A stretch of 50,537 nucleotides of DNA from Desulfobacter vibrioformis DSM 8776. GTDB lineage: Bacteria > Desulfobacterota > Desulfobacteria > Desulfobacterales > Desulfobacteraceae. A model generated the notes under the pieces. It was not told where the DNA came from, did no database searches, and worked only from the letters and a program-made list of their open reading frames with translations. The stretch spans positions 1 through 50,537 of the forward strand of contig NZ_JQKJ01000026.1 in NCBI RefSeq assembly GCF_000745975.1, given 5' to 3'. Positions 22,869 to 44,267 of this stretch are shown piece after piece; within the stretch, counting starts at the first letter, position 1, and each line of letters opens with the position of its first letter. A program made the position numbers and the translations under genes.

Positions 22869-23939
22869 TTAAATTGTGGATTTAAGATTATCCGGATTTC
22901 GCCAGCACAAGGGATCCGAAGCCAAAAGATCGCCGGTGACCTGGAAGGCTGCGCCCCGGCACCCGTAACAGGTGTCATTTTTTTCACAGGTGCGGCAAAA
23001 TCCCTTGATGGTCTGCCGGTGATTTTTCAACAGGGCAAGTTCCCGTGAATGGTCCAGAATATCCTTAAGGCCGGTTTCCCGTATGTTTCCTATGGGTTTT
23101 GTAATGCCCACACAGGGCTGGACATTGCCGATGGAGGTGACCATGCAGGAAAACTGGTGCCGCATGCACTGGTTGCCCATGAGCGGCGGCTGGGGGTCCC
23201 ATTCAATGCCGTAGCGTTCCCGGTCAACGGCACAGATCTCCTCGAACACCGCTTTAAGCTCCAGGGGGGTCAGTTCAAGGGCGGCATTATTTTTTGCCTG
23301 GCCCTGGGGGGTAATGATTTCAAAATAGGGTGCCATGTTGTTGTCCCTGATCCAGGACCACAGGTCAGTCAGTTCATTCCGGTTCTGGCGGCAGATAATG
23401 GTGCTCAACGCCAGGAACGCGTCCTTGGCTGGATAGCCTGCTGCCTTAAGGTTGCCCAGGGCATTGCGGATAATGTTAAACGCCCCTTTTTTGCCTGCAA
23501 GGGCATCCTGCCTGTCTTCATCAAAGGAGTTCATTTTCAGGACAACCCTGACCCCGCCTGCATGAAGTTCCCGGGCAAAATCAGGGGTAATGCCGGTGCC
23601 GTTGGTAAACATTTCTATTTCAAGATGGTGGCTTTTTAAAAATGCAATAACCTCCCGGATATGGGGGTAGATGCTGGGCTCTCCGCCCAGGAGAATAAAT
23701 TTTCCGGCCCCAAGTGCTTTGGCCTGGAGAATAACCTCAAAAATCTCGTCCAGGCTGAGTTCATTATCAAAATATGAATCATGGGGCACATAGCAGTAGG
23801 TGCAGCGAAAATTGCACCGCAGGCTTAACTCAATTTCCATGGAGAGAAGCCGGTTGCCGGATACGGCCTGATCGATCTTTTGTCTGGAAAATTCAAAATT
23901 TCCGGCACAACCAATGTTATGACTGGTACAGATACTCAT
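22869..23939 (-). CDS. Radical SAM/SPASM enzyme at the end of the lipid operon
   Basis: The 356-residue product has the radical SAM cluster motif Cys42-x3-Cys46-x2-Cys49 (RCNFRCTYCY), the SAM-contact GGEPS, and a C-terminal SPASM region with cysteines in NQCMRHQFSC, VQPCVG, FCRTCEKNDTCYGCRG and DPLCW, enough for one or two auxiliary [4Fe-4S] clusters. SPASM proteins modify peptides or small molecules by 5'-deoxyadenosyl radical chemistry. It overlaps the MMPL/methyltransferase gene by four bases, so it belongs to that operon. Substrate is unknown; the context suggests a lipid or acyl intermediate. A deleted recent copy lies at 21194-21559. Confidence 0.9.
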   Translation of the reverse strand: MSICTSHNIGCAGNFEFSRQKIDQAVSGNRLLSMEIELSLRCNFRCTYCYVPHDSYFDNELSLDEIFEVILQAKALGAGKFILLGGEPSIYPHIREVIAFLKSHHLEIEMFTNGTGITPDFARELHAGGVRVVLKMNSFDEDRQDALAGKKGAFNIIRNALGNLKAAGYPAKDAFLALSTIICRQNRNELTDLWSWIRDNNMAPYFEIITPQGQAKNNAALELTPLELKAVFEEICAVDRERYGIEWDPQPPLMGNQCMRHQFSCMVTSIGNVQPCVGITKPIGNIRETGLKDILDHSRELALLKNHRQTIKGFCRTCEKNDTCYGCRGAAFQVTGDLLASDPLCWRNPDNLKSTI

Positions 23940-26900
23940 GGGGACACCTTTGCGACAAACCAGACGGTTTCCGGGTTGTTACCGGATACTTTGGTGTATT
24001 CCATCCTGAAATCCGCCTCGTTGATAAAATCTGTGATGGCTTGCACAGACAGGTAATGGGGAACCACCCCTTTTAATTTCAGCTTCAGCGCTTCAATGGC
24101 CCAGACCCGGGTTGGTTTTGCGGCCGGGGGAATAATCGCCCTGAGAATAAGGGTACCGCCGGACGCCATAACTGCCCTGATTTTTGTTAAGGTCTGCCTG
24201 AATTCATCAGGTGTTAGAAAATGGGCCATATCCAGCATCAGGGCCATGTGGACAGGTTCTGAAACATTCGGGATATCCGGGGCGTGGCCCTGATCAACAC
24301 GTCCCTGGCCTGAAATTGCCATGGCACTGATCCGTTGGCTTTCAGGATCCGGCTCCAGGCCGGATATACGGGCATGGGGAAACAGTTCAAGGAGAAAACA
24401 GGCCGGCACACCCAGCCCGGTGCCGATGTCCAGTATCCGGGAAATATTTTCCCTGCCTGCCAAAAGGCCTGGCAGCTCCCTGAACATGGGGTCCAGCTTC
24501 AGCTTAAAACGGACGAACATTCTGGGGTATGCCTCGGCTGTGCGGTACCTGGCGAGAATCCGGGATGGGACAGGTATAGCCATTTCCGGATTCCTGCCCG
24601 CCGGCGGTTCAGCGGTTTGCGACATAAAATAGCGGCGCAGCAGGGGCGGCAGAATCAAAAACGCGCCCCCAAGGCAAAAGCCGATGCCCAGAAGGGAGGA
24701 AAGGCCGGCACTTTGCAAAAGCGAATGCTCGGCCAGGCACATCACCCCGAATCCGATCATGGTGGAAATGCCTGCCACGAATACGGCCAGGCGTATCAGT
24801 TCAACCGATGGATGGGATTCGTCACGGTAGCGCTGGTAGGCGCGCACAAAGAACAGGGAGAAGTCAATGCCGATGCCGAAGACAATGATGGAGAGCATCA
24901 GCGAGGGAATGTCCAGGTCGTGTCCAATAAGTTTCATGGTGCCCAGGGTGCCGATAAAGGCAAAAAAGACCGGCAGCATGGTGATGATGGTGAGTTTGAT
25001 GTCCAGGAAAAAGACAAAAAGCAGGATCAGAACAGCCCCTGCAATAATGAAGAACATCTTGACAAAGGTTGAACACAAAATGGCGCCCAGGGTGGTGGAA
25101 AAAAGCTGGGGTTCAAACACGGTGGCAACGCTGCTGAACGCGTCATAGAAACTTTTTTCATCCACAGCCGGGTTGCGCATCAGGCTTGTGGTCCAGACCC
25201 AGTGGCCCCCATCTGTCCCGGGTTGGGATATGCCCATCATGGGATAAAGGGCCTGGGGAATTGCCACGGGTCCGTCCGGAAGGCCGGCCGGGACAAGAAG
25301 GCTTAAAAACGAGTCAAAGGCATCCCGGGTGAAACCGAGTTGCCCGGCCTCCCGGACCAGGGTCTGTTTAAAGGCACTGACCCGTTCCGGAGTCCAGAAT
25401 TGTACCCAGGCCTGGTAGTTCTCCTGTTTTTTTGCCTTTCCCGGAAATATCATTGAAAGGGTTGTGCCCGACGCCGGAATCCCTTGGGTCTGAACGGCAG
25501 AAACCTTATCCGCCAGCTGGTCGCTTAAATCCTGGAGTTCCGGGACCGAGCCCGCAGTCAGCATGAGGTGGGATTTGCCTGTAAACCCTTTACCCCAGGT
25601 TTCATAGAATTTTGTATCCGCATCCCGGGTTTCCCGGCTCACCGTACTCATGGCAGACAGGTCCACATGAAAAACAGGCCAGGCAAACCACACCAGGATC
25701 AGCGTCAGTACCAGGGCAAACCAGGCCCCTGCGTTACCGGGAATAATCAGGGCATTGACCAGCCGTTTTAAAGGGAGGGCCCGGGGCCTGGCCGGGCCAA
25801 GCATGGGTACGATCCTTGGAAACAGGGAATGAATAAAGACAAAGGAGAATCCCATGCCAAGGGCTGTAAATTTGCCAAGCTCTTCAAGGATTTTAAAATC
25901 ACTCATCCCCAGGGAGAGAAACGCGCATACCGTGGTCAGGGTGGCGATAAGACCCACGGCCCGCACTTGTGCGGATGCATGTCTGCCAGATGTTTTCCGG
26001 GGCTGGTCCAGGAAGAGCAGATAGGTAATGCCGTGGTCTATGGTGATGGAGATGATGGCCCCGCCAAATCCAAGGACAATCAGGGAGATACTGTCATATA
26101 ACAGAGAATAGGTAAAAAGGCCCGCAATGGTGCCGAACATGGCGGGAACCAGGGCCAAAAGCCCGATCCATGGCCGGGGAAAGGCTAAGAACAATAGAAG
26201 AACGATGGCTGCCGTGGCAATGAAAATGGCGTTTTGGACATCGTGTTTAATTATTCTTTCATTGTCATAGGCAGCCCTGAATGCCCCTACTGAGGTAAGT
26301 ACGGCATGCTCTCCGGGCCGGGAAAACCCTGTCTGGGCACGGGTCTGGATAGCATGGATCAGATCCATGGCCCGGGTTGAAAATTTTGAATCCGTGCCCG
26401 AGCTTTTCGGGGTGGCCATGATCAGGCAGTGCCTGGAATCACCGGATAAAAGTTTTCCTTTGTAAATATTGAACTCGTCAACCGGCGCCAGGGACTTCAG
26501 CCTTGAAAGCACAATGTTTTTCAACCCTAATGGATCAAGGGAGATGAATTCAGATGTGCCAACCTCTTCCAGGCCCAGCAGTCTGGCATGGGTCTGGCCC
26601 AGGGTTTCCCGGATGGCACCAGGTGCCAGTAAAGGTGCAATATCGGTTTCAAGCTGGGTGCGGGTGAATTGAAAAGGCAGGGTCTTTACCACCTGGGTCA
26701 TCAATTCCGGCATGATCTCCTGGTAGTGATCCATTCCCACACTGCTGAACAGTCCGGATGCCCAAAGCGTTTCCTCCACCATGGCGGCAAGTTTTACCAG
26801 TCGTTCCGGATCCCGGGTGCCAAGGCCTGCACTAATAACGACCCGGTCCTGGATGGGGTGGTGGTCAAAAAAATAAAGGGCATCACGGATCACCGGGTTG

Positions 26901-27046
26901 TGTGTTGGAAGCGATGCCGTGATATCGGTTTCTATATGAAGCCTTTGGAAACTGACAAAAAGCATCAATGCCGCACTAAGGATCGTGATGATTAACAGAC
27001 CGATGTTCAGTTGTTTGTCGCGTTGTGTTGCATTTACCACAGGCAC
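23936..27046 (-). CDS. MMPL/RND-type lipid exporter fused to a C-terminal methyltransferase
   Basis: The 1036-residue product first shows two MMPL halves, each with one leading helix, a large periplasmic domain and five helices. They carry the SIVFGIGIDFSLFFVRAY and FGGAIISITIDHGITYLLFL segments, whose Asp residues are the usual proton-relay sites. After about residue 835 a SAM-dependent methyltransferase follows, with ILDIGTGLGVP (about 869-879) and GLEPD as the SAM acid loop. MMPL proteins export lipids; in aryl-polyene and similar loci an MMPL and a methyltransferase are normally separate. Here they are one chain with no internal start that looks better than the fusion. The methyltransferase would sit on the cytoplasmic face and could modify cargo at the export gate. 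It overlaps its neighbours by 4 and 13 bases. Confidence 0.9.
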   Translation of the reverse strand: MPVVNATQRDKQLNIGLLIITILSAALMLFVSFQRLHIETDITASLPTHNPVIRDALYFFDHHPIQDRVVISAGLGTRDPERLVKLAAMVEETLWASGLFSSVGMDHYQEIMPELMTQVVKTLPFQFTRTQLETDIAPLLAPGAIRETLGQTHARLLGLEEVGTSEFISLDPLGLKNIVLSRLKSLAPVDEFNIYKGKLLSGDSRHCLIMATPKSSGTDSKFSTRAMDLIHAIQTRAQTGFSRPGEHAVLTSVGAFRAAYDNERIIKHDVQNAIFIATAAIVLLLFLAFPRPWIGLLALVPAMFGTIAGLFTYSLLYDSISLIVLGFGGAIISITIDHGITYLLFLDQPRKTSGRHASAQVRAVGLIATLTTVCAFLSLGMSDFKILEELGKFTALGMGFSFVFIHSLFPRIVPMLGPARPRALPLKRLVNALIIPGNAGAWFALVLTLILVWFAWPVFHVDLSAMSTVSRETRDADTKFYETWGKGFTGKSHLMLTAGSVPELQDLSDQLADKVSAVQTQGIPASGTTLSMIFPGKAKKQENYQAWVQFWTPERVSAFKQTLVREAGQLGFTRDAFDSFLSLLVPAGLPDGPVAIPQALYPMMGISQPGTDGGHWVWTTSLMRNPAVDEKSFYDAFSSVATVFEPQLFSTTLGAILCSTFVKMFFIIAGAVLILLFVFFLDIKLTIITMLPVFFAFIGTLGTMKLIGHDLDIPSLMLSIIVFGIGIDFSLFFVRAYQRYRDESHPSVELIRLAVFVAGISTMIGFGVMCLAEHSLLQSAGLSSLLGIGFCLGGAFLILPPLLRRYFMSQTAEPPAGRNPEMAIPVPSRILARYRTAEAYPRMFVRFKLKLDPMFRELPGLLAGRENISRILDIGTGLGVPACFLLELFPHARISGLEPDPESQRISAMAISGQGRVDQGHAPDIPNVSEPVHMALMLDMAHFLTPDEFRQTLTKIRAVMASGGTLILRAIIPPAAKPTRVWAIEALKLKLKGVVPHYLSVQAITDFINEADFRMEYTKVSGNNPETVWFVAKVSP

Positions 27047-27747
27047 ACCCCAAGGAACCCGAGAACCGCTAAATGACCGATAATAATCATCGGGCGGTGG
27101 GCATGAAAAAATTCGTTCATCATCTGGATGAATCCAAGGCCGCCAAAACAGCGCCGGAACCTGTCCAGGCCCCGGCAGGCATCATTGTCTGTTTCCGCAT
27201 TGCTCTGGAAGGCAAAAAAAGGCGTTGTTCCCAGGTAGTCGTCACTAAGATTTCTGAGCATCACATCATAGGGTATCCCGCGCCAGGACTGGCTTGCGAT
27301 CTTTTTGCCAAAGGTGCGGCTGACCGCATAGGCATGGGTCAAGGCATGATACCTGATTTTTTTTACCCCTGGATTGCCGGTTTTTGAACTGCCCTTGATC
27401 AGACAACCGAAAAAGAGCAGGGTCCAGGTGCTGCAGGCTGACAGATGTTGAACAGCACCTCTTAATCTCTTTGGGTCATACCGATGAAACACCACGTCAT
27501 CCTCAAACACCACCCAGGCCCGAGCCCCGGCATCAATGGCTTTTTCCATGCACAGCAGATGGGATGCAAAGATTCCCCGGCAGGGGTCGTTGCGGTCTTT
27601 ATCCACCAGGATAAATTCAATCCGTTTTCCAATGCCCATGCGTGAAAATTCAACCCCGGCCCGTTCCCGGCGGTCAGTACGGTCCCGGAGGGAGATGCAG
27701 TACAGCTTGTCAAAAAAGGCCCAGGGGGTTTCAGGTTCAGGTGTCAT
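27034..27747 (-). CDS. GT25-family glycosyltransferase with C-terminal membrane anchor
   Basis: The 237-residue product resembles LPS glycosyltransferases of family 25: N-terminal FDKLYCISLRDRTDRRERA, the acidic metal-binding FEDDV (residues 81-85), and the ALTHAYAVSR region. A hydrophobic tail (PMIIIGHLAVLGFLGVCLW) probably anchors it to the inner membrane, unusual for the family. It likely adds a sugar from a nucleotide donor to the product of the lipid locus. It overlaps the MMPL gene by 13 bases and the PlsY-like gene by four. Confidence 0.85.
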   Translation of the reverse strand: MTPEPETPWAFFDKLYCISLRDRTDRRERAGVEFSRMGIGKRIEFILVDKDRNDPCRGIFASHLLCMEKAIDAGARAWVVFEDDVVFHRYDPKRLRGAVQHLSACSTWTLLFFGCLIKGSSKTGNPGVKKIRYHALTHAYAVSRTFGKKIASQSWRGIPYDVMLRNLSDDYLGTTPFFAFQSNAETDNDACRGLDRFRRCFGGLGFIQMMNEFFHAHRPMIIIGHLAVLGFLGVCLW

Positions 27748-28352
27748 GGCCTGTCATTCGCTATTTTTTTTGAAACGTCCATACAATGATTCCCGGATAC
27801 AAAGGCAAGCCAGTTGCTTCGGTGGTTCAGCACGATAAATCCCATGCATACAATCACCCCAGCGATTCCCGGAAAATCGGTTCCGGATATCCGGGCAAGG
27901 CCCATGCCGATAATGGCCACAAGCACCATGGAGCCTGCAAAGGGTTGCCGGAAAAACAGATATCCGGCACACCAGCCGGCAAGGGAAAGCACTGTAAATA
28001 AAGGGGTTAGAAACAGGGAGAAACCAATGAAATGGGCAACGCCTTTTCCCCCTTTAAATCCGTGGAAACAGGGGAAGCGGTTCCCAAGGAGCAGAAAAAA
28101 TCCCACCCAGAGGGTTGCGGGCACAGACAGAAACCGGGCGGCAGCCGCTGAAATCAGAAACGCCTTTCCCACATCGGCCATGAGAACAAATCCGGCCCAT
28201 TTCATCCCCAGGATTCTGTAAATATTGGTTGTGCCGGCATTTTTGCTGAACAGGGTCCGGGGATCTTTTTTCGTTTTCAGTTGCAGCACAAGGATGGAAA
28301 CGTTCAAAGCGCCTGCAGCATAGGCAATCAGGCAGAAAAGCGCAAACATCAT
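27744..28352 (-). CDS. PlsY-like membrane acyltransferase
   Basis: The start ATG at 28352 overlaps the stop of the upstream gene (TAATG) and follows GGGAGGG. The 202-residue product has at least five membrane helices and the PlsY motifs: SKNAGTTNIYRILG (residues 36-49; glycerol-phosphate site), FHGFKGGKGVA (about 93-103) and LNHRSNWLAF near the C-terminus. PlsY transfers acyl groups from acyl-phosphate to glycerol-3-phosphate. An acyl-phosphate donor could be made by the DhaL/DegV fatty-acid kinase of this same locus, which makes a direct functional link. It is divergent enough to be a specialised paralogue, not the housekeeping enzyme. Confidence 0.88.
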   Translation of the reverse strand: MMFALFCLIAYAAGALNVSILVLQLKTKKDPRTLFSKNAGTTNIYRILGMKWAGFVLMADVGKAFLISAAAARFLSVPATLWVGFFLLLGNRFPCFHGFKGGKGVAHFIGFSLFLTPLFTVLSLAGWCAGYLFFRQPFAGSMVLVAIIGMGLARISGTDFPGIAGVIVCMGFIVLNHRSNWLAFVSGNHCMDVSKKIANDRP

Positions 28353-29218
28353 TAGGCACCCTCCCTGATCCATGCAGGCGGGGTGATGGTCCCGCCGCTG
28401 ACATCCCGCATCATCACCCCGGACACGGCTTCACACAGATCGCCCTGGTCATCGAAAATCCATATGTCAAACCCCAGGGTTCCGTGGATCTGGTATTGGG
28501 GGATCACCCGGGCAGTATACGCCTCATGTTCAACCGTGGGCTTGTAAATGACCCGTTTGTCAAATCCCACCGGAAAAGCCACAATGCCGAAAAACCGCTG
28601 GCTCCAGACACATCCGGCATGGAAGGCACCGTCCAGGGAAAATCCCGATCCCAGCACCGTTTTCAAGGGATCGTCTGTATCCTCCGGCATCGCTTTAAGT
28701 GTTGCTGACGCGCCGGACCGGGAAAGCTGCAATTCACCTGTAATGGAGTGAAAGGCAGGCCTGAATGGAACCAGTTCCCGGTATATGGCGGCAGCGGCCA
28801 CATGAAACACCGGCTCACTGAATTCATGCATCCGGGCAGATGACAAGTTTGGGGCAGGTTCTGTTTTAGTGCTGAAGGTTGCTGTGCAATGCACCCTGAG
28901 CCGTGTCATGGCCCCGTTTTTTATGGGAACCCGGGTGGCCAGGGAGAGCGTGATCCGGTTATCGTCAATGCGGCGGATATTGCACAGCGCCCCAATGGTT
29001 TTCTGCCCCGGTTCAAGCACAAGAAATTTGTTGAACCGTACATCCGCCATATGCCAGGGGGCTGCGGCAGACGGAAGAAAGTTGTGTGCCTGAATTGATC
29101 CGGCCAGGACCTTCAACGCCTCCACAGCCGGAAAAACCGCCTGGCCTGCAAAACAATGGTCCATGAAGTGGGGATATACGGCAATGGTTAACGGAACCTG
29201 GGTAACCGATCTGTCCAT
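28352..29218 (-). CDS. Stand-alone polyketide-synthase-type dehydratase (double hotdog)
   Basis: The 288-residue product carries the PKS dehydratase signature HxxxGxxxxP exactly (His21, Gly25, Pro30 in DHCFAGQAVFP) and the partner motif DxxxH (Asp196, His200 in LDGAFH), in a two-hotdog layout. This catalytic pair dehydrates 3-hydroxyacyl-ACP to enoyl-ACP. In modular synthases it is a domain; here it is a free protein between a radical SAM gene and the PlsY-like gene, separated by one base and overlapping by three. It would act on ACP-bound intermediates of the ketosynthase. Confidence 0.85.
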   Translation of the reverse strand: MDRSVTQVPLTIAVYPHFMDHCFAGQAVFPAVEALKVLAGSIQAHNFLPSAAAPWHMADVRFNKFLVLEPGQKTIGALCNIRRIDDNRITLSLATRVPIKNGAMTRLRVHCTATFSTKTEPAPNLSSARMHEFSEPVFHVAAAAIYRELVPFRPAFHSITGELQLSRSGASATLKAMPEDTDDPLKTVLGSGFSLDGAFHAGCVWSQRFFGIVAFPVGFDKRVIYKPTVEHEAYTARVIPQYQIHGTLGFDIWIFDDQGDLCEAVSGVMMRDVSGGTITPPAWIREGA

Positions 29219-29219
29219 A

Positions 29220-30266
29220 TCAGGTTCTGCTTGGCGGGTCTACGAATTTGGGGCTTAGGTTTTCCCCTTTTTCATACCCCATCACCCATACGGCCAGATA
29301 GGTATCCACATAATCCAGCCAGGCCTTGAAGGTTTCAGGATTGGTGGCGTGTCTGAAAAGCCGTGCCGTGACAACGGCACTGCCGGCCGCGTAGTGGCGG
29401 CAGTCCGCACAGTCCGTATCCGGAACACAGCATGCCGCGTTTCTGTCCCAGGTCAGATCTGCCCGGTATTGCCTGAAGGTTCTGCCCAGGCCCACATCTT
29501 CATGGGGATTCATTCTCGGATAAGAGCATTGAAACAGATCATGCAGACCCTTCTCATAGGTATGGGCCAGGATGTTATAGTGGGAAAAGAGCAGATGTTC
29601 AGGATAGGTCCCAAGCATTTCCAGCATGACATCCCGGGTCTTGGCCAGTGTCTGCCGGGTGTGCCGAAGGTCTCCCTTATAGCCAACCGGCGCGGAAAAC
29701 ATATTAAAGGTGAAGCGGCAGCCGTTTTCCGCAAGTATGGGTGCCACATCCCGTATCTCGTCAATATTGCTGCGGGTAAAGGTATAGACAAACACAGCCC
29801 TGGGATCGTCTTTGTAATTTTCGATCTGTTTTTCAAGCAGGCGGTCTGCCCTGCGGACAGCCTGGCTTGTCCGGTCATTGCCCCACACGGAGATGTGAAT
29901 CCTGTATCCCACGCTTTCGGGTATGAATTTTAACCCGTTGGATGCGATGGCGCCCAGGGGGATTTCCCGGTAACAGGCTTGTAAAAGCCCGGGAACCAGG
30001 GCCGGTTCAGCCCCTGCCAGGACAACAAAGGTGATGCCCCGCTCCTTTTCTTCGGCCATCAGCTTTTGCCATGCGCCAGGGTCGTTATTTTCAGTGACAA
30101 ACTGTTTGTCGCCTTCATAGAAATAACAGCCTTCACACCGGATATTGCAGCGGTTGGTCATGTCATAGGTGGATTCCCTCAGGAAAAAATACTTTTTTAC
30201 CCGCTGCCATCGGCTGCGAATCACCGGATCGGACAGAATATCTGAAAATTTCCACTGTTTTTGCAT
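29220..30266 (-). CDS. Radical SAM protein (lipid-locus paralogue 1)
   Basis: The 348-residue product has Cys40-x3-Cys44-x2-Cys47 in YDMTNRCNIRCEGCYF and a C-terminal cysteine cluster (CCVPDTDCADC, about residues 280-290) that may hold an auxiliary Fe-S centre. It is clearly paralogous to the protein at 37011-38009, sharing the (Y)D(M/V)TNRCN(I/L)RC motif, the EKERG(I/V) segment, the G(A/G)EP loop and the C-terminal CC-x6-C-x2-C. The family is not one I can name; it somewhat resembles HpnH/SPASM-like enzymes. It is tightly linked to the ACP gene (11-base gap) and the dehydratase (1-base gap). Confidence 0.88.
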   Translation of the reverse strand: MQKQWKFSDILSDPVIRSRWQRVKKYFFLRESTYDMTNRCNIRCEGCYFYEGDKQFVTENNDPGAWQKLMAEEKERGITFVVLAGAEPALVPGLLQACYREIPLGAIASNGLKFIPESVGYRIHISVWGNDRTSQAVRRADRLLEKQIENYKDDPRAVFVYTFTRSNIDEIRDVAPILAENGCRFTFNMFSAPVGYKGDLRHTRQTLAKTRDVMLEMLGTYPEHLLFSHYNILAHTYEKGLHDLFQCSYPRMNPHEDVGLGRTFRQYRADLTWDRNAACCVPDTDCADCRHYAAGSAVVTARLFRHATNPETFKAWLDYVDTYLAVWVMGYEKGENLSPKFVDPPSRT

Positions 30267-30277: not shown

Positions 30278-30538
30278 TTATAATTTATTGTTGATGTATT
30301 CAGCAATGAGCCGGATGTTGGTCAGTTTGGGGTAGTCATCCTCGTCAATACGGATGCCGTATTCATCCTGGATCACCAGGGCCACGGTGGCAAGGTCCAT
30401 GCTGTCAATACCGACTTCATCCACAAGGTCCATTTCCGGATCAAAGGTTTCAGGCGTCACATCTTCAATCATGAGTTCATCAATAATAATCCGGGCCACA
30501 TGGATAATGACCTCGTCAATGGTTTTTACTTTGTTCAT
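30278..30538 (-). CDS. Acyl carrier protein
   Basis: The 86-residue acidic, helical product has the phosphopantetheine site in GIDSMDLAT (Ser46) and the ACP pattern around it (DPEMDLVDEVGIDS, YGIRIDEDDYPKL). It carries acyl chains as thioesters and is one of three ACPs in the locus. It lies 11 bases upstream of a radical SAM gene in transcription order, suggesting that enzyme may act on the ACP-bound chain. It is separated from the rest of the upstream operon by the inserted ATPase/DUF4276 pair. Confidence 0.92.
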   Translation of the reverse strand: MNKVKTIDEVIIHVARIIIDELMIEDVTPETFDPEMDLVDEVGIDSMDLATVALVIQDEYGIRIDEDDYPKLTNIRLIAEYINNKL

Positions 30539-32450: not shown

Positions 32451-32485
32451 AACAAAAACCCCTATAGTTTTATAAGGCAGGAAAG

Positions 32486-37017: not shown

Positions 37018-38009
37018 GGAATGAACTGATACAGTTTGGCGAACATTTCATAAACCGTTATCCAGTTCTGCAGATCCCGGGTGCTGTTCATGTGGGCCCG
37101 TTTGTTGACCATGACCCAGCTCATGTGGGCTGCGCCGTCCTTGCAGGTTTTGCAGTCCCGGGTTTCAGAGGTGCAGCAGCGGTGCATGGTTTTAAGGTCC
37201 GAAGCCCAGCGGATGAAGTTGGTCAGCCGTTTGGGGTTATTTTTCCGGCTGTCCAGGGGCTGGGTTACCGAGGGGCATTCCGGCCACCCGAAAGGCCTGC
37301 CCAGCATGGTGCCTGTGGTAATAATTTTGTGGTAGTATTTTGAGGAGACCACTGTATCCGGATAGCGGTCCAGCAATTCGTCCATCTCCCGGCACACGGC
37401 GGCAAGTTCAGGTTCTGTCCAGCTGAATCCGTCCACGCCTTCGTCATTGGACAGAAGCTGCATATGCACTTTGAGTCCGACATTGCGGATTTTCCGGATA
37501 ATGGGCTCGATATTTCCCACCAGCCTGGGGGTAATGGTCAGAAGATAGTAAACATGGGGATCGCCTTCATAGTGGCGGCTGGATATGGCAAAGGTATCCT
37601 TTCCCCTTAATGTTTTTTCGTCGTCGCTGCTGCCCCACAGCGAAATGCCCACCATCATATCCGGGAAACGGTCCCTGGGCACTTTGATCAGCCCGTTTGT
37701 GGCAACAAAGGCGGGCATGCGTTTATAAAACGCCTCAACCCGGTCCAGGCAGAGGGTGGGTTCCCCGCCGATGAGAATGGCGAGGTTGACGCCCCGCTCC
37801 TTTTCCCGGTCAATAAAGGCTTCCCATTCTGAAACATCCATCTGTTCTCTGGCTGCCTCGTGTTCGCCGGATGAAAAAAAGAAACAGCCCTTGCACCGCA
37901 GATTGCAGCGGTTGGTTACATCATAGATGGAACTTCTTATGTTAAGCTTGGAAATCGCTTTATATCGTGCATACCACTGCTGGTCCAGCAGTGAACTAAC
38001 TGTTTTCAT
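37011..38009 (-). CDS. Radical SAM protein (lipid-locus paralogue 2)
   Basis: The 332-residue product has Cys35-x3-Cys39-x2-Cys42 (VTNRCNLRCKGC), GGEPT as the SAM-contact loop, and a late cluster HRCCTSETRDCKTCKDGAAH (about residues 275-294). It is a paralogue of the protein at 29220-30266 by motif order and length. It is first in line after the ketosynthase gene, 179 bases away, and overlaps the thioesterase. Two related but non-identical enzymes suggest two similar radical steps, or a heterodimer. Confidence 0.88.
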   Translation of the reverse strand: MKTVSSLLDQQWYARYKAISKLNIRSSIYDVTNRCNLRCKGCFFFSSGEHEAAREQMDVSEWEAFIDREKERGVNLAILIGGEPTLCLDRVEAFYKRMPAFVATNGLIKVPRDRFPDMMVGISLWGSSDDEKTLRGKDTFAISSRHYEGDPHVYYLLTITPRLVGNIEPIIRKIRNVGLKVHMQLLSNDEGVDGFSWTEPELAAVCREMDELLDRYPDTVVSSKYYHKIITTGTMLGRPFGWPECPSVTQPLDSRKNNPKRLTNFIRWASDLKTMHRCCTSETRDCKTCKDGAAHMSWVMVNKRAHMNSTRDLQNWITVYEMFAKLYQFIPW

Positions 38010-38188: not shown

Positions 38189-40372
38189 TCATCCGGGCAT
38201 CACCTCAACGGCTGTGAGATACCGGCCAAGGCCTAAAAGAAGAATGCCGCGGTCTTGAAGGTCTATGTATTGTCCCGGGGCATGGGGGTCAGGCAGCCTG
38301 TTGTTTTCTATCGCATCCACGGCAAGCACGGCGGCAACAGCCGGGGCCGTGGCAAACTGCCCGGTCAGACAGCGGTAATCCAGGATGGGTATGGACGATG
38401 AAAACGCGTGGGGCAACGCATCAGCCAGGGCCTTTCCCCGGACGGCACAGGCCCGGGGAATACCGGCCATGACAGCACCATACCTGTCATTGACCTCCGG
38501 CAGTTCCCGGATAAGGCCTGCCAGGGCATCTTGGGGTGGCACATTATTGTCATTTTTCATAAAAAGACGGGGAGTCAGGGTGGTTTTGCCGGGCACCGCC
38601 CCCGGGACCAGCACTAGGGCACCGCCGCCGTCCGATGCCGTGTTCCCGGGGACCACGGACATGTCAAATCTGAAAGACAGATCCTTATGGTGTTCATCTG
38701 CGCCCATGACCATCATGGGGGCATGATCCTTTTGACTTAGCATCCCGGCTGTCCAAAGGGCCTGTTCAAAGGAGGCATCCCCGCCCGTGGTGGTGATGTT
38801 TGCGCCTTTGGCACCCAGTTCCATGGCCACATGGCCCAGGGCTGCGTTGTGGACTGATCCCACAAAATCAATGGGGCTGGAGGACATTTCATTGCCTGCA
38901 AAAAGCCGCGAAAGAAAATCCCAGGTTTCCGACAAAGATCCCCAGCCGGTTCCGCCGATAATGGATGCCGGCGATATGCCGGAAATATTTTTCCCGGCCA
39001 GGACTGCCAGGGCCAGCATCAGGCGGGAAAACCGTTTCATCCGCCGCACTTTTTTCAAGGAGAGCAGGTCTGTCAGGATTTTGTCCGGGATCATTCCGGC
39101 AAGGGACTGCCCCTTGTAAAATGCGTCCAGGCTTTCAGCCGTGGTGCCCGCACCGGTCACACAGGCGTAACCCAGAACCGACATGGGACCCATCTTCGGC
39201 TCTTGCCCCCCTTTTACATCCCGGGCCCAGGCCCCGGATGTCCGGTTTTGGGTTTCTGATATCACAATGGCCGCATTATTGCCCCCAAATCCAAATGTGT
39301 TTGACAATACCCTGTGAACTGGCTTTTGTATGGGACCGGGCACCGGGATAAAATTGAGTTCAGGATCCGGTGTACTGAACCCGGTATTGCCGGGAATGAT
39401 GCCTTTGGATACGGCCAGGGCGGAAATGACCGCTTCAATGGCCCCGGCAGCGGCCATGGGGTGGCCTGTGGCGCCTTTTATTGATGATGCCGCAGGTCTG
39501 TTCCGGTTAAAAAGCCGGTTCACGGCCATGGCTTCGGCCTTGTCATTGGCCTCGGTGCCGGTGCCGTGAAGGCTGATGTAATCGACCTGTTCGGGTGTGA
39601 TACCGGCGTCATCCAGGGCTTTTGCCATGGCATCAAACGCCCCGTTCCCTTCGGGGTGCGGGGATGAGGCGTGGAATGCATCACAGGACAGGCCGCCGCC
39701 GGACAGTTGTGCAACGGGATTTTCAGGTCTTTGGGATACAAGCAGCAGCAGGCCTGCACCCTCGGCAACACTCATGCCGGAACGATTTTGGTCAAAGGGG
39801 CGGGCCCCGGCAGGGTCAACCACCTGCAGGGATTGAAACCCGAAACAGGTCATCCGGCACAGCGCATCTGCCCCCCCGGCCAGGACGGTTTGTGCCTGGC
39901 CCGAACGGATCATCTCCAAAGCGATTGTCAGGGCCGTGTTTCCCGAAGCGCAGGCCGTGGCCACGGTGATAGCCGGGCCGGTGCAGCCAACCAGTTCGGC
40001 AATATCCTCTGCAACCGTTCCCAGACCGTGGTATTGAAAAAGCGCTGGATCGGTTTCCTTTGCTTTAAGCAGGGATTCGCAGGTCAGCATGCCCCCGGTG
40101 GTGACCCCGAGAACAACGGCATCCGGAACCAGGCTGCATTGGGCCATGATCTGTCCGGCAGCGATCCGGGCAAGCTCGTGTGTTCTGGGCAGCGTGTTTT
40201 TGATTGTCCCGCGGACCATGCCCACCTTGGGAAACTCCGGACGGTTGAGTTGAAAAAAATCCACGGAAACCAGGCCGGATTCGCAGCGTTTAAGGGCCTG
40301 GAAGGTGCTGTCCGTCCCTGTCCCCAATGCGGAGATAATTCCCATTGCAGCAATGTAAGCACCACATGTCAT
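38189..40372 (-). CDS. Ketosynthase / chain-length-factor fusion protein
   Basis: The 727-residue product contains two thiolase-fold halves. Residues 1-375 are a complete beta-ketoacyl-ACP synthase with Cys141 (TACASGN), His269 (LHGTGTEAND), Lys299 and His304 (KGATGH). Residues about 395-727 are a second, degenerate synthase of the chain-length-factor type: the active-site position reads TTTGGDASFEQAL with no Cys, as in ApeC-like/ketoacyl-synt_2 proteins. KS and CLF are normally two subunits that heterodimerise and set chain length; here they are one chain. AGGAG lies eight bases before the ATG. It condenses malonyl-ACP with the growing chain and is the first gene of the minus-strand arm, divergent from the BtrH arm. 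Confidence 0.92.
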   Translation of the reverse strand: MTCGAYIAAMGIISALGTGTDSTFQALKRCESGLVSVDFFQLNRPEFPKVGMVRGTIKNTLPRTHELARIAAGQIMAQCSLVPDAVVLGVTTGGMLTCESLLKAKETDPALFQYHGLGTVAEDIAELVGCTGPAITVATACASGNTALTIALEMIRSGQAQTVLAGGADALCRMTCFGFQSLQVVDPAGARPFDQNRSGMSVAEGAGLLLLVSQRPENPVAQLSGGGLSCDAFHASSPHPEGNGAFDAMAKALDDAGITPEQVDYISLHGTGTEANDKAEAMAVNRLFNRNRPAASSIKGATGHPMAAAGAIEAVISALAVSKGIIPGNTGFSTPDPELNFIPVPGPIQKPVHRVLSNTFGFGGNNAAIVISETQNRTSGAWARDVKGGQEPKMGPMSVLGYACVTGAGTTAESLDAFYKGQSLAGMIPDKILTDLLSLKKVRRMKRFSRLMLALAVLAGKNISGISPASIIGGTGWGSLSETWDFLSRLFAGNEMSSSPIDFVGSVHNAALGHVAMELGAKGANITTTGGDASFEQALWTAGMLSQKDHAPMMVMGADEHHKDLSFRFDMSVVPGNTASDGGGALVLVPGAVPGKTTLTPRLFMKNDNNVPPQDALAGLIRELPEVNDRYGAVMAGIPRACAVRGKALADALPHAFSSSIPILDYRCLTGQFATAPAVAAVLAVDAIENNRLPDPHAPGQYIDLQDRGILLLGLGRYLTAVEVMPG

Positions 40373-40577
40373 AATTTAAGCTCCTATCGTCAGGCTGGTG
40401 ACCGGCAAACAAGACCCTGTTGGAAAATTTTCCCATTCGAAATATCATTTAAGGCAGGCCAATGGAAGCACATTGTAAAATTAGGCTTGTTTTTAACGAT
40501 AAATTCAGTGTAAGTCCTATGCAAACTTTGAACACACTATTTTTTAACCCCTTTTTTAACACAAGTTTTTATCTGTG
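40373..40577. promoter_or_regulatory. Divergent promoter region of the lipid locus
   Basis: This 205-bp AT-rich gap separates the two divergent arms and must hold at least two promoters. Short direct repeats TTTTTTAACCCC / TTTTTTAACAC occur at about 40539-40563, just before the plus-strand start, and could bind a regulator. Exact -35/-10 elements were not assigned. Confidence 0.4.
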
Positions 40578-41000
40578 ATGGAAATTAAAGACGTCCCCCA
40601 AGACCCTGGTATTTTAGACGATTATGGCCGTGAAATATGCTATGCCGTAGACCAGAACGGCAATTACAATCTGGTGCAGAGTATTGGCTGGTATCCCAAA
40701 AATATAGCAAACAGACAGGCATGGCAGGCCATTGAAAAAAAAATAAATAAGGCCCGTGAAGATATCCTTGGCGGAAAGCTCAGTCCCATTGGGTTTTATA
40801 TGGCGTGCAACCAGATGGATATCAGGCTTCTTGCCCAGTATATGGGATTGTATTGCTGGCAGGTCAGACGGCATCTCAAGCCTGCGGTATTCAAAAGAAT
40901 CAAAAAAAATGTACTGGACAAGTACGCGGCATTATTCAATGTATCCGTGGATGAATTAACATCGCTGCCGGACAAACTGACCAGGGATTGCCATATATAA
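40578..41000 (+). CDS. Hypothetical helix-turn-helix-like protein of the lipid locus
   Basis: I use the ATG at 40578 (MEIKDVPQDPG); a GTG three bases earlier is the alternative. The 140-residue product ends with a helical bundle (GFYMACNQMDIRLLAQYMGL, QVRRHLKPAVFKRI, ALFNVSVDELTSLP) that resembles an XRE HTH, where the last piece is the usual HTH end. The N-terminal 60 residues, with GREICYAVDQNGNY, are not recognised. It is first in the plus-strand arm, 11 bases before the BtrH-like gene. A regulator of the divergent arms is the simplest idea, but a structural or adaptor role is possible. Confidence 0.68.
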   Translation: MEIKDVPQDPGILDDYGREICYAVDQNGNYNLVQSIGWYPKNIANRQAWQAIEKKINKAREDILGGKLSPIGFYMACNQMDIRLLAQYMGLYCWQVRRHLKPAVFKRIKKNVLDKYAALFNVSVDELTSLPDKLTRDCHI

Positions 41001-41010: not shown

Positions 41011-42024
41011 ATGATAATTGATTTTAAACATACCCAGTCTGCCCATTGCGAATGCGGGGTCACAGCAAACCTGATCAATCATGCCGTAAAAGAAAGTGAC
41101 CCGCAGCTTTCAGAAGCCCTGGCATTTGGCATCGGCCAGGGCATCTTTTTCGGATACCTGCCGTTTATCAAGGTCAATGAACTGCCGCTGACAACCTTTC
41201 GGTGCCCGGTGGGCAAAATATTCAAAAGCGTGACCCGGTCTTTGGGTATTGACGTCAAATGGCAGAAGTTTTCAAGCGTCCCCAAAGCCATGGATGCCCT
41301 GGACATGGAACTTGACAAGGGGCATCCCGTGGGATGCCGGACCGGCGGGTACTGGCTCCCGTATTTTCCCCCGGCACTGAGATTTCATTTTAACATGCAC
41401 AATATCGTAGTGATCGGCAAACAGGGGGATAACTATATCATCAGTGATCCGGTTTTTCCGTCGGTGGTAGAGTGCCCGGCAAAGGACCTGGCCCTTGCCC
41501 GGTTTGCAAAGGGGGCACTTGCACCCAAGGGAAGCATGTACCGGATTACCCGGGTACCTGGAAAAATTGATCTTAAACCGGCCATATTGTCCGGGATCAA
41601 AGGTGCGGCAAAAAGCATGGTGAAAACGCCTGTGCCGTTTCTGGGCACCCGGGGGATCCGTTTCCTGGGAAAATGTGTTGAAAAGTGGCCTGAAAAATTC
41701 GGCCAGGAGAAAACCATACTCCTTTTGGGTCAGCTCATACGGATGCAGGAGGAGATCGGTACAGGCGGCGGCGGCTTTCGCTTCATGTATTCGGCCTTTC
41801 TCCAGCAGGCTGCCGGGATATTGGATGACCCGCGGCTCACCCCCATGGCCGAACAGATGACAGCTTCCGGAGATCTGTGGCGCAGATTTGCCGTCAAGGC
41901 CGCAAGGCATTGCAAAGGCAGGGCAACCCAGGACGACTCGGTACATGCCATGCGTCAGGTGCTTAATGCCTGCGCGGATATCGAAACCCGCACCTTTAAG
42001 GAACTTTTATCCATTGCCGGCTGA
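41011..42024 (+). CDS. BtrH-like N-acyltransferase (papain-like fold, DUF4872)
   Basis: The 337-residue product begins with the BtrH_N pattern TQSAHCECGVTANLINH, giving nucleophile Cys13, then MHNIVVIG (His130) and ISDPVF (Asp146), a papain-like triad. BtrH moves an acyl group from an ACP to an aminoglycoside amine. The C-terminal half is a helical DUF4872-like region with a GTGGGGFRFMY loop. Here it could transfer the acyl chain from the adjacent third ACP to an amine, giving an amide lipid. It lies between the HTH-like gene and the ABC transporter and overlaps the latter by about 11 bases. Confidence 0.82.
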   Translation: MIIDFKHTQSAHCECGVTANLINHAVKESDPQLSEALAFGIGQGIFFGYLPFIKVNELPLTTFRCPVGKIFKSVTRSLGIDVKWQKFSSVPKAMDALDMELDKGHPVGCRTGGYWLPYFPPALRFHFNMHNIVVIGKQGDNYIISDPVFPSVVECPAKDLALARFAKGALAPKGSMYRITRVPGKIDLKPAILSGIKGAAKSMVKTPVPFLGTRGIRFLGKCVEKWPEKFGQEKTILLLGQLIRMQEEIGTGGGGFRFMYSAFLQQAAGILDDPRLTPMAEQMTASGDLWRRFAVKAARHCKGRATQDDSVHAMRQVLNACADIETRTFKELLSIAG

Positions 42025-42775
42025 TAATGATCAATCGGTTCTTGAGGTCAGTGGATTGGGAAAACGCTATCCAGGCGGCAGCAAAGATGTCTTGAACGAC
42101 CTGAATTTAAGGGTTGAAAAAGGCGAGATTTTCGGATTGCTGGGGTCCAACGGTGCGGGGAAAACCACAACCATCTCAATTTTGTCCACCTTGATAAAAC
42201 CCACCCGGGGCAGCGTGCGGATCTGCGGGGTGGACGCCTTGAAACATCCCGTTAAAGTCAGGCGCCTTATCAGCCTGATCCCCCAGGAAATCGCTTTGTT
42301 CCCCAAACTCACCGGACGGGAAAACATGCGCTACTTCGGCACGTTATACGGCCTTAAAAAAAAAGCGCTGGGTTTGAAAATTTCTGAAACCCTGGCATTG
42401 TTTGACCTTGATGATTTTGCCGATGAGCTGGCAGGCAAATGTTCCGGCGGCATCCAGCGCAGGTTTAATATTGCCTGCGGGATTCTGCACGATCCGGCAC
42501 TGATTTTTCTGGATGAACCCACCGTGGGAATGGATGTTCCCTCCCGCAACGCATTGCTCGCCCGGATTCAGCAGTTAAGCCTTAAGGGCAGCACCCTTAT
42601 CTATACCACCCATTACATGGAAGAGGCCGAAAAAATCTGTTCACGGGTCCTGATCATGGACAAGGGCATCTGCCTTGCCCAAGGTGCCACCAGAGATCTG
42701 ATCAGCGGCAATGACAAATGCCGTGATCTTAATGAGCTGTTTTTGACTGCCACAGGAAAAGAGACTAATTGTTAA
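42014..42775 (+). CDS. ABC-2-type transporter ATP-binding protein
   Basis: The domain starts at about SVLEVSGLGKRYPGG; no ATG is available in frame, and TTG at 42014, eleven bases before the end of the BtrH-like gene, is the best start. The product of about 253 residues has Walker A GSNGAGKTT, Q-loop IPQEIALFPKL, signature CSGGIQRR (Cys replacing the usual Leu), Walker B LIFLDEPTVGMD and H-loop TTHYMEEAE. This is the DRA/ABC-2 importer-exporter type (CcmA/YadG-like) for drugs and lipids. It stops where the permease starts (TAATG). Confidence 0.88.
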   Translation: MPADNDQSVLEVSGLGKRYPGGSKDVLNDLNLRVEKGEIFGLLGSNGAGKTTTISILSTLIKPTRGSVRICGVDALKHPVKVRRLISLIPQEIALFPKLTGRENMRYFGTLYGLKKKALGLKISETLALFDLDDFADELAGKCSGGIQRRFNIACGILHDPALIFLDEPTVGMDVPSRNALLARIQQLSLKGSTLIYTTHYMEEAEKICSRVLIMDKGICLAQGATRDLISGNDKCRDLNELFLTATGKETNC

Positions 42776-43998
42776 TGGGACTTTTGGCTGCCACATTAAA
42801 AAAAGAACTGCTTTTGCTCATCCGGGACCGGGTGGGGCTGGTGCTGTTGTTTGTCATGCCTGCCGTGCTGGTGACCATTGTCTGTCTTGTGCAGGAAAAA
42901 GTGCTGAACCCCACCACCCATGTTCTGGTCCTTGATAACGATAAAAATGAGATCGGGAAAATTATTTTTAAAGGCTTAAAAGCGTCGGACAATATTATTG
43001 CCGTAAACGGGAAAGATATCGGCTGTGACACCGAGGCCGCTGCAAAATCCCTTGTGAATAAAGGCCAGTACCAGTTCAGCATTATCATTCCCCGGGGCAG
43101 CACCCGCTTTGCTTTTGACAAGGCCCGGCAGTTTGCCCTGGGACAAACTGATCCCTCAGGCACAGACAGCAGACAGATCACCGTATATTTCGATCCTTCG
43201 GTCCAGGGGGGCTTTCGGGCTGCGGTGTTAAGTTCAATCTCAAAGGTGCTTTTATGTCTGGAGTATGAGATCAAACTGCGACAGGCACTTTTATTGACGG
43301 ACAGGCTCCCGGATACGTCACCGCCTGCCCCGTGGTTTGACATCAAAGAGGCCTGGGCAACGGAATTCGGATTCATTAAAATGCCCACATCGGTTCAGCA
43401 GAATGTGCCGGCCTGGGCCTTATTCGGCATCTTTTTCATCTGTGTGCCCATTGCCGGCAGCATGATCCAGGAGCGTGACAATAAAACCCTGGCCCGGCTC
43501 AAAACCATGCCTGTTCCGGGATTTATATTTATATTTGGAAAAATTGCCGCCTATATCTGTGTGTGCCTGATTCAGTTTTTCTTTGTTTTTTTCATCGGTA
43601 AATTTGTTTTCCCCCTGCTGGGCCTGCCCGCCTTTGTCATAGAGGGCCCATGGCTTGCCGTGCTTATTATTATTGCCGCATGTGCGGTGGCTGCTGCAAA
43701 TTACGGCCTCATGCTGGGACAGGTTGCAGGCTCCTATGAACAGGCCTTTGTCATCGGTCCCACAACCATCGTGATTGCCGCAGCACTGGGCGGTATCATC
43801 GTTCCTGTTTATCTGATGCCGGAACCCATGCAGTTTATCAGTCACTTATCCCCCCTGGCATGGGCTTTGGACGCATTTTACGATATCCTTCTGAGGGGAA
43901 AACAGATCAAAGATGTTTTGCCCGAAGCAGGTTACCTGCTGGTGTTTGGATTTGCTGCGTCAGGCATTTCCCATATCTCTTTTAAATACAAAAAATAA
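42775..43998 (+). CDS. ABC-2-type transporter permease
   Basis: The ATG at 42775 overlaps the ATPase stop (TAATG). The 407-residue product is an ABC2_membrane_3 permease: first helix VGLVLLFVMPAVLVTIVCLV (about 20-40), a periplasmic domain of about 170 residues, and five C-terminal helices with the PVYLMPEPMQFISHLSPLAWALDAF motif typical of the family. With the ATPase it would export the lipid product or a glycolipid. The locus therefore has two exporters, this one and the MMPL protein. Confidence 0.88.
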   Translation: MGLLAATLKKELLLLIRDRVGLVLLFVMPAVLVTIVCLVQEKVLNPTTHVLVLDNDKNEIGKIIFKGLKASDNIIAVNGKDIGCDTEAAAKSLVNKGQYQFSIIIPRGSTRFAFDKARQFALGQTDPSGTDSRQITVYFDPSVQGGFRAAVLSSISKVLLCLEYEIKLRQALLLTDRLPDTSPPAPWFDIKEAWATEFGFIKMPTSVQQNVPAWALFGIFFICVPIAGSMIQERDNKTLARLKTMPVPGFIFIFGKIAAYICVCLIQFFFVFFIGKFVFPLLGLPAFVIEGPWLAVLIIIAACAVAAANYGLMLGQVAGSYEQAFVIGPTTIVIAAALGGIIVPVYLMPEPMQFISHLSPLAWALDAFYDILLRGKQIKDVLPEAGYLLVFGFAASGISHISFKYKK

Positions 43999-44009
43999 GG
44001 TAAACCATA

Positions 44010-44267
44010 ATGCTGGAAAAAGAGCTGTTAACAACCATTGTCGAACTCTGCAATGTCCAGGAAGATATTCCGGATGACTTTCCAATGGACGCCCCCCTGG
44101 TGGGACCGGACTCCCTGCTTGGACTGGATTCCCTGGACGCGGTTGAAATTGTTGTCATGGTCCAGGATGTCTATGGGCTTCGAATCGACACCCAGGACCA
44201 GGCCCGTGAAATTTTATCAACGATTAAAACCCTTGCCGGTTATATACGGGAAAGGGGGAATTTATAA
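44010..44267 (+). CDS. Acyl carrier protein (third of the locus)
   Basis: The 85-residue product has LLGLDSLDAVEIV with phosphopantetheine Ser41 and the same length and layout as the ACP at 32902. It closes the plus-strand arm, 11 bases after the permease gene. It may be the donor ACP of the BtrH-like transferase, as butirosin BtrI is for BtrH. The 125-bp gap after it carries no clear terminator. Confidence 0.93.
   Translation: MLEKELLTTIVELCNVQEDIPDDFPMDAPLVGPDSLLGLDSLDAVEIVVMVQDVYGLRIDTQDQAREILSTIKTLAGYIRERGNL

Follow-up and report, generated by a model that had tools for sequence, protein, structure and literature searches.

The closest described systems to the locus reported here are the aryl-polyene (APE) cluster of Escherichia coli CFT073, the flexirubin and arcuflavin clusters of Chitinophaga and Azoarcus (PMC3992019, PMC3949708), and the type II fatty acid synthesis (FASII) clusters associated with ladderanes in anammox bacteria and Desulfotalea (PMC2649909, PMC4790861). 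Flexirubins are described as a chemotaxonomic marker of the Bacteroidetes (PMC3992019). Aryl polyenes of anaerobes are already known from the celluxanthenes, arylpolyene alkaloids of cellulolytic anaerobes, but these come from an iterative type I polyketide synthase; the likeness lies in aryl polyenes being made by strict anaerobes (PMC12144888). Here we investigate a divergent locus at positions 22869-44267 of a 50,537 bp stretch of Desulfobacter vibrioformis DSM 8776, referred to as the window, which is the entire contig NZ_JQKJ01000026.1 of a 4.47 Mb assembly that is 95% complete. This locus is probably the core of a flexirubin/arcuflavin-type aryl-polyene pathway that has been rebuilt for anaerobes and is split over four contigs in this genome. 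Known pathways of this kind produce yellow-orange pigments; the one proposed here has several radical enzymes of the oxygen-sensitive sort and a fatty-acid kinase of its own.

Gene classes were checked with Pfam and NCBIfam profiles, and defence genes with PADLOC. Genomes are given G numbers (G000 being the window's own), fetched stretches L numbers, and contigs of the window genome C numbers (the window is C25). A preliminary description of the locus had listed a ketosynthase (KS)-chain length factor (CLF) fusion, three acyl carrier proteins (ACPs), hotdog proteins, a thioesterase, a Fak kinase, PlsY, GT25, an MMPL-methyltransferase, a BtrH-like protein, an ABC-2 exporter and four radical SAM enzymes, and all of these were recovered in place by Pfam and NCBIfam, with a DarG-family gene as an addition:

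22869-23939, minus strand: radical SAM/SPASM enzyme (Pfam Radical_SAM and SPASM)
23936-27046, minus strand: MMPL/RND exporter, ApeM-like, fused to a methyltransferase (Pfam; ApeM of E. coli, E 6e-9)
27034-27747, minus strand: GT25 glycosyltransferase (Pfam)
27744-28373, minus strand: PlsY-like acyl-phosphate:glycerol-3-phosphate acyltransferase (Pfam, 107.7 bits)
28352-29218, minus strand: PS-DH-like double-hotdog dehydratase (Pfam, 23.4 bits, just below the cut-off of 23.7; D20, H21, D196 and H200 conserved in the alignment)
29220-30266, minus strand: rSAM2, radical SAM enzyme (Pfam, 28.2 bits, just below the cut-off of 29.5; CxxxCxxC and a conserved C-terminal Cys set)
30278-30538, minus strand: ACP1 (Pfam; D45 and S46 conserved)
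32486-32905, minus strand: ApeI-like dehydratase (Pfam ApeI-like; ApeI of E. coli, E 5e-11)
32902-33165, minus strand: ACP2, ApeE-like (Pfam; 39.5% to ApeE)
33210-36575, minus strand: FakA (Dak2 and FakA-like_M), DegV/FakB and B12-binding radical SAM domains in a single polypeptide (Pfam)
36580-37017, minus strand: 4HBT thioesterase, ApeK-like (Pfam; ApeK, E 1.9e-16)
37011-38009, minus strand: rSAM3, radical SAM enzyme, strongly conserved (76-83% outside the genus; Pfam and homologue search)
38189-40372, minus strand: KS-CLF fusion (Pfam; KS Cys141, His269 and His304; CLF Asp532 at the position of the KS Cys)
40575-41000, plus strand: DarG-family protein (NCBIfam NF053536, 167 bits, cut-off 70)
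41011-42024, plus strand: DarH, BtrH-related acyltransferase (NCBIfam NF053550, 437 bits, cut-off 300)
41888-42775, plus strand: ABC ATPase (Pfam; the reading frame overlaps DarH and its true start is uncertain)
42769-43998, plus strand: ABC-2 permease (Pfam)
44010-44267, plus strand: ACP3 (Pfam)

The four radical SAM enzymes are the SPASM enzyme, rSAM2, rSAM3 and the fused B12 domain.

The 18 Ape proteins (apeA-R) of E. coli CFT073 served as the APE reference, with a homologue threshold of E<=1e-3. Homologues of seven are encoded in the window, of 12 in the window and four stretches from three further contigs of the same genome (L188, L189, L190 and L223), and of 14 in the open reading frames of 27 loci of the wider family described below. 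ApeI, ApeK, ApeM and ApeE have their homologues in the window, ApeB, D, H, J and R on C3, and ApeP and ApeQ on C11. The genes of these two contigs are:

C3, 225-236 kb: ApeB homologue (49%), 305-aa gene, AMP ligase, ApeR-like KS, PlsC, KSx, KSy, thioesterase, GT2 glycosyltransferase and LpxL-like acyltransferase
C11, 110.9-117.0 kb: ApeP-like protein, FabG (ketoreductase), LolA-like protein, DUF3261-like protein, a further B12 radical SAM enzyme, ApeR-like KS and ACP

Taken together, the window, C3 and C11 contain a ketoreductase, two dehydratases, ACPs, a thioesterase, a glycosyltransferase and acyltransferase, LolA-like and DUF3261 proteins and an RND exporter. The preliminary description had seen no ketoreductase, AMP ligase or ammonia lyase, which holds for the cluster itself but not for the genome, where such genes are on C11, C3 and C14, respectively, and a generic short-chain dehydrogenase/reductase lies near the cluster (window 17969-18850). 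Its statement that this is not a standard aryl-polyene cluster is not supported: the pathway is split, and what was taken for a missing aryl-polyene half, with AMP ligase, ketoreductase, second dehydratase, further KS, PlsC, glycosyltransferase/acyltransferase, LolA-like protein and methyltransferase, is found elsewhere in the genome. In two other genomes of the genus the parts are closer together. In G009, one 49.5 kb stretch (2,378,602-2,428,149) carries the SPASM enzyme, the rest of the minus-strand operon, the plus-strand operon, DarB and the ligase operon as far as the acyltransferase, and in G004 the minus operon, ApeB and the ligase operon are found together within approximately 35 kb (1,477,374-1,512,571).

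The phylogeny of the condensing enzymes points the same way. In a tree of 38 chosen KS, with some long branches including that of ApeO, the window KS falls into a nine-row clade with E. coli ApeO (support 95/98) that includes three Planctomycetota KS. The KS of the Fak operon described below groups with ApeR, and the three KS of C3 group with the relatives' KSx, KSy and ApeR-like KS. Among aligned rows with letters at these positions, the KS Cys is present in 37/37 and both His in 40/40, and the CLF has Asp for Cys in 39/40. The KS-CLF is predicted to be an ApeO/ApeC-type condensing pair.

Is the starter unit an aryl acid? The AMP ligase is found in all eight of the same-genus genomes that have the window cluster, versus one of the 11 without it. 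It is 28.7% identical to ApeH over 134-448, and its best named kin is 4-coumarate ligase. An ammonia-lyase family (PF00221) gene is present on C14; however, such genes occur in 16 of the 19 genomes of the genus, with or without the cluster, and are therefore uninformative here. As the linked starter gene in Desulfobacter, this candidate was rejected.

Compared with the E. coli cluster, the KS and CLF are fused in the window, ApeA and ApeG have no match, the genes are split over contigs, and at least four radical SAM enzymes, a FakA-FakB fusion, PlsY and GT25 have been added. Gene content and phylogeny would place the system in the aryl-polyene/flexirubin kind, with attachment and tailoring genes that are new to it.

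The plus operon brings in the second half of a flexirubin. The dialkylresorcinol (DAR) genes reported for Azoarcus are darA (DAR aromatase), darB (cyclase), darD, darE (BtrH-like), darF (ABC ATPase), darG and darH (antitoxin- and PIN-like), darI (permease) and darC (ACP), letters that differ from those of the NCBIfam Dar families used here; a chorismatase takes the place of the tyrosine ammonia-lyase, and both products are predicted by the authors to be linked as an ester (PMC3949708). The window genes, DarG family, BtrH, ABC ATPase, permease and ACP, follow the published order of Azoarcus darD, E, F, I and C, except that the two antitoxin/PIN-like genes between the Azoarcus ABC genes are absent. 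Further likenesses to the flexirubin and arcuflavin clusters as published (PMC3992019, PMC3949708) are DarB, a DarA-like candidate, a FlxJ-type methyltransferase and the types of ligase, LolA, exporter and acyltransferase. Unlike in those clusters, there is no cluster-linked ammonia lyase in Desulfobacter; a tyrosine ammonia-lyase was not found in the cluster, the PF00221 gene being on C14 instead.

In the window genome the DarB-type synthase gene is at G000:C26:44196-45341, and its product is 89% identical to that of G009. The G009 protein scores 532 bits with the StlD/DarB family (cut-off 450) and 471 with the narrower DarB model, below its cut-off of 550. DarB genes were found in nine of 40 genomes searched: seven of the eight same-genus genomes with the cluster, plus G008 and G013. 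The candidate DarA is the 305-aa gene on C3. Among plasmid records only three have a homologue, which in each of them is, by coordinates, directly beside a DarB homologue (3/3), and the gene is present in most of the read genomes that have DarB, DarG and DarH. Counting against this candidacy are the lack of any family match or clear Protein Data Bank (PDB) match for the protein and the failure to see the gene in the G009 stretch. Beside DarB in G009 there is also an HpnR-like B12 radical SAM gene (L205 8773-10083; HpnR 155 bits, cut-off 650).

Or do the two operons serve separate pathways, the minus operon an APE-like lipid and the plus operon an independent dialkylresorcinol, with only the promoter region in common? 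In G004 the minus operon and ligase operon are present without DarB and, in the stretches read, without DarG, DarH or the 305-aa gene; DarB is found in G013, which has no cluster; and among the relatives described below DarH is present in only two of 80 wider loci and DarG/DarH in three of 20 Fak loci (stretches read). Set against this, five further genomes of the genus preserve the divergent adjacency of DarG and KS-CLF, three distant relatives (L168, L169 and L173) again have DarG/DarH next to the Fak operon, and the Azoarcus authors predict that the two products are joined (PMC3949708). We regard two independent products as rather unlikely; for the minus operon this explanation overlaps with a joint flexirubin-type pathway. 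With APE-type genes elsewhere in the genome, the AMP ligase following the cluster and the plus operon in the order of a published DAR cluster bar two genes, the earlier view that the product was not predictable is not supported.

The rSAM3 gene leads to a much wider family. A pattern search found an rSAM3 relative encoded in 298 stretches of named genomes, of which the best 80 (76-96% identical) were kept and viewed. The closest named contig to the window among these 80 is from a Desulfobacter postgatei metagenome-assembled genome (MAG), with rSAM3 at 96%. The 80 loci are mostly from Desulfobacterota, plus Smithella and some MAGs filed as spirochaetes. They encode homologues of rSAM2 (75), KS-CLF or KS (75), ACP1 (69), ApeI (66), the double hotdog (56), PlsY (26), MMPL (20) and GT25 (18). 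These counts are lower bounds, as the loci differ in length. Open reading frames were called mechanically, antisense ones included, and unnamed families were identified by a Pfam scan of one representative each. These genes usually follow one another as ACP2, KS-CLF, a family of B12 radical SAM enzymes to which the L083 enzyme discussed below belongs, ApeI, ACP1, rSAM2 and rSAM3, followed by two further KS, the thioesterase, double hotdog, PlsY, GT25 and MMPL. The rSAM2 and rSAM3 pair marks a family without known product, and the pathway looks widespread among anaerobic bacteria. Like rSAM2, rSAM3 has a conserved C-terminal Cys set. A PDB sequence search with rSAM3 gave weak matches only. Its predicted structure has a mean pLDDT of 71.5, with the cluster-binding region below 50, and Foldseek returned general matches only (best query TM 0.48); because the model is too weak around the clusters and the matches are only general, no reaction is assigned to it. 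The best NCBIfam kin of the fused B12 domain is BchE, at 165 bits with a cut-off of 481.

The kinase is inherited with this family. FakA-DegV was found in 46 of the 49 genomes holding rSAM3 loci, all but G435, G444 and G457. Of 395 Desulfobacterota genomes drawn neutrally, 28 have rSAM3, the query genome among them. FakA-DegV is matched in 33 genomes, but in three the match (26% identity) covers just the FakA half, so that 30 are counted. The FakA-FakB fusion is thus in 28/28 genomes with rSAM3 and 2/367 without it (G048 and G385), with a Fisher p of 7e-41 computed without regard to shared ancestry. The FakA DxD, GNSG and Cys/HxH and the FakB Ser, Arg and His residues, which we take to be catalytic or ligand-binding, are invariant in 28/28 aligned sequences, except for one Ser (26/28). 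On this sequence evidence the kinase belongs to the pathway, and the dedicated acyl kinase with a PlsY-like acyltransferase proposed in the preliminary description gains support. FakA-FakB, PlsY and PlsC are known to form a route by which a free acid is converted to phosphatidic acid. The window protein has the Dak2, middle and DegV domains of the FakA/FakB kinase with the checked residues, but differs in having the kinase and acyl carrier in one chain, along with a B12 radical SAM domain, and in being tied to a biosynthetic cluster where the known system is tied to the uptake of free acids.

Around FakA-DegV in 20 genomes there are GT2 (17), LpxL-like acyltransferase (16), thioesterase (14), ACP (10) and PlsC (9) genes. 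A typical operon, as in L160, L166 and L171, comprises thioesterase, FakA-DegV, GT2, acyltransferase, ACP, KS, PlsC and B12 radical SAM enzyme; in 11 of the 20 loci the same operon includes a separate gene orthologous to the B12 radical SAM domain of the window protein (57-63%). The window genome encodes FakA-DegV and the B12 enzyme as a single polypeptide and has its GT2, acyltransferase, PlsC and KS genes on another contig. Because relatives carry FakA-DegV and the B12 enzyme as separate genes in one operon, the triple fusion appears to be a collapsed operon. Four of the 20 loci, including those of a Smithella and a spirochaete MAG, have an aromatic ammonia-lyase gene, and four, from Desulfofustis/Desulfopila-type genomes, have an AMP ligase, which fits with an aryl starter in those lineages. 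The FakA-DegV matches of G452, G462 and G470 have one TAA inside the matched stretch, as in a pseudogene, a frameshift or a split gene.

Our first reading of the cluster was as a ladderane cluster, on the evidence of TIGR04072 ('rSAM_ladder_B12') in relatives. The B12 radical SAM enzyme of relative L083 passes this model (378, cut-off 360), and in G009 a 48% homologue of it is retained, lying between the KS-CLF and rSAM3 genes. The window SPASM enzyme has a 42% homologue beside TIGR04072 in an anammox-like locus (L145 9306-10352, E 5.7e-95), which also shares KS, FabG, ACP and MMPL; 42% homologues stand beside TIGR04072 with KS, ACP and MMPL in L149 as well. A ladderane-like or other membrane lipid would reuse the APE-like chassis, with the radical SAM enzymes making a cyclised, methylated or other non-polyene acid that passes into glycerolipids through FakA, PlsY and PlsC, and no pigment would be formed; the established use of that route from free acid to phosphatidic acid suits it. 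Related clusters are also reported in Desulfotalea psychrophila, a maker of polyunsaturated hydrocarbons (Rattray 2009; PMC2649909), 'ladderane' clusters have been reported in Desulfobacterota in a Cariaco study, and other ladderane-related work has been published (Javidpour 2016, Uegaki 2023).

However, nothing in the window genome passes the TIGR04072 cut-off of 360, the best score being 97.9 bits. The cut-off is passed by 20 of 343 genomes in the phylum of G457, which is filed as Planctomycetota. Among these 20, rSAM3 has a strong match only in G457, with weak partial matches in four others, and FakA-DegV is found in none (0/20), the same query finding matches in Desulfobacterota. The rSAM3 piece of G457 (79%) is on a 5.8 kb contig (L073 1-5811) of a MAG and is probably mis-binned. 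Ladderane membership was rejected because the window genome is without a TIGR04072 equivalog and the clusters of that phylum, this contig excepted, are without rSAM3 and the kinase. The likeness to the ladderane FASII clusters as published (PMC2649909, PMC4790861) comprises TIGR04072 in relatives, the SPASM enzyme, KS, FabG, ACP and MMPL, so the anammox-like and window systems would share a chassis and differ in their add-ons. Since the ApeB/FlxJ-type methyltransferase, aryl-ligase-like enzyme and DarB also point to APE/flexirubin chemistry, we consider a pigment-free membrane lipid unlikely.

From the observed gene content, conservation, co-inheritance and kept catalytic residues we propose a scheme for the aryl-polyene pathway in which every reaction and the product are predicted. 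The AMP ligase of C3 would load an aryl acid onto ACP, and KS-CLF and the extra KS of C3 and C11, with FabG and the ApeP and ApeI dehydratases, would extend this starter to a polyene. The ApeB/FlxJ-type enzyme would methylate the head group, and rSAM2, rSAM3, the SPASM enzyme and the B12 radical SAM domain may alter the chain or head group by reactions that we leave unspecified. The thioesterase would release the polyene acid and FakA would phosphorylate it on the fused FakB/DegV carrier. PlsY, PlsC, the GT2/LpxL-type pair and GT25 could then incorporate it into a glycolipid, for which MMPL and the LolA/DUF3261-like carriers would be the export route. In genomes with DarB, DarG and DarH, part of the acid may be esterified to a dialkylresorcinol. 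The single coherent pathway with a chain built on ACPs, as first suggested, is supported.

We advance only tentatively the further idea of a new anaerobic lipid class, in which the polyene of an ApeO-type KS-CLF is remodelled by the undescribed rSAM pair and B12 enzymes, freed, phosphorylated by FakA-FakB and turned by PlsY, PlsC and glycosyltransferases into an outer-membrane glycolipid in Desulfobacterota, Smithella-type syntrophs and spirochaete MAGs. The two conserved radical SAM enzymes, the B12 radical SAM enzymes and the FakA-FakB fusion are new here. Literature searches, covering listings and passages of a few papers, turned up no published cluster in which such radical SAM enzymes and kinase are combined, in agreement with the original proposal of an undescribed pathway, and we have met no prior description of such a 'release and re-activate' attachment logic for aryl polyenes.

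Several observations weigh against a flexirubin-type pathway. ApeA, C, F, G, L and N gave no direct-search match in the stretches of the window genome; the ApeC match is weak (E 3e-4) and by protein search only; LolA and DUF3261 were detected in this genome only via homologues of relatives; and ApeB has no match in the 27 wider-family loci. The ApeB homologue scores 485 with FlxJ, below the cut-off of 560. An aryl starter is not assured because there is no cluster-linked ammonia lyase in Desulfobacter and the AMP ligase scores far below the 4-coumarate ligase cut-off (109 vs 335). The G009 stretch is without ApeB and the 305-aa gene, though DarB, DarG and DarH are there, and DarB also occurs in G013, where cluster and AMP ligase are both absent, and in G008, which has the AMP ligase but gives no FakA match. 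Some genes may serve other pathways, since they are far apart in some relatives; in Desulfosarcina widdelii rSAM3 is near 2.9 Mb and FakA-DegV at 4.09 Mb. The term 'radical SAM' is absent from the main text of the flexirubin paper (PMC3992019). The co-occurrence counts also ignore shared ancestry.

Within the genus the gene order is kept, with proteins 71-96% identical, in stretches from six other genomes. The complete minus operon is covered in G004, G009 and G016; coverage extends to MMPL in G005, to rSAM2 in G003 and only to ApeI in G015. The plus operon is missing from G004 in the stretch read. The cluster is absent from 11 of the 19 genomes of the genus, six of which are 96-100% complete with <=5% contamination. 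This bears on whether the pathway instead makes the mid-chain methyl-branched acid 10-methyl-16:0, a lipid marker usually attributed to the genus Desulfobacter as a whole, the methylase being the B12 radical SAM domain. The named kin of this domain include B12 radical SAM methylases, and phospholipid could take the acid up again by way of the kinase and PlsY; yet a genus-wide marker is not expected from a cluster missing in 11/19 genomes, nor does it account for the APE/flexirubin gene set. This product was rejected and is very improbable.

Between ApeI and ACP1, on the same strand as the operon, lies a defence pair:

30638-32495, minus strand: HEC-01-like pair, DUF4276 and AAA_21 (PADLOC HEC-01B 3.1e-67, HEC-01A 2.7e-138)

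The slot after ApeI varies among same-genus genomes, and because it holds different genes elsewhere the pair is not considered part of the pathway. By eye, the cargo is cobalamin-type genes in G005 and G016, transposase-like in G015, Fic/DoxX/rhodanese-like in G003 and toxin-antitoxin-like in G009. A small methyltransferase gene, PEMT/ICMT-like by its homologue L103, lies between KS-CLF and rSAM3 in five Desulfobacter genomes, for which there is no room in the window or G004:

L018, 3619-4164: PEMT/ICMT-like gene
L019, 17755-18300: PEMT/ICMT-like gene
L015, 17403-17975: PEMT/ICMT-like gene
L021, 9592-10137: PEMT/ICMT-like gene
L023, near 8747: PEMT/ICMT-like gene

Just downstream of the intact minus-strand genes, window 21194-21999 is a degenerate partial copy of the operon end, in which the C-terminal part of the methyltransferase and an internally deleted radical SAM gene can be recognised. 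At the other end, an MsrA/MsrB fusion gene (44393-45520; NCBIfam) adjoins ACP3; it appears to have been inserted or lost, because nothing separates ACP3 from the next MFS gene in G009.

Flexirubin-type genes in sulfate reducers would extend the known range of flexirubins beyond the Bacteroidetes. Attachment of aryl polyenes to a lipid anchor was still a proposal in PMC8253772, the Xenorhabdus lipid having just been solved at that time, and a kinase-PlsY route tied to an APE-type pathway would be a direct and testable answer for this step. The TIGR04072 and SPASM links set the anammox ladderane clusters beside the aryl-polyene clusters, and may in this way bear on the unsolved ladderane pathway.

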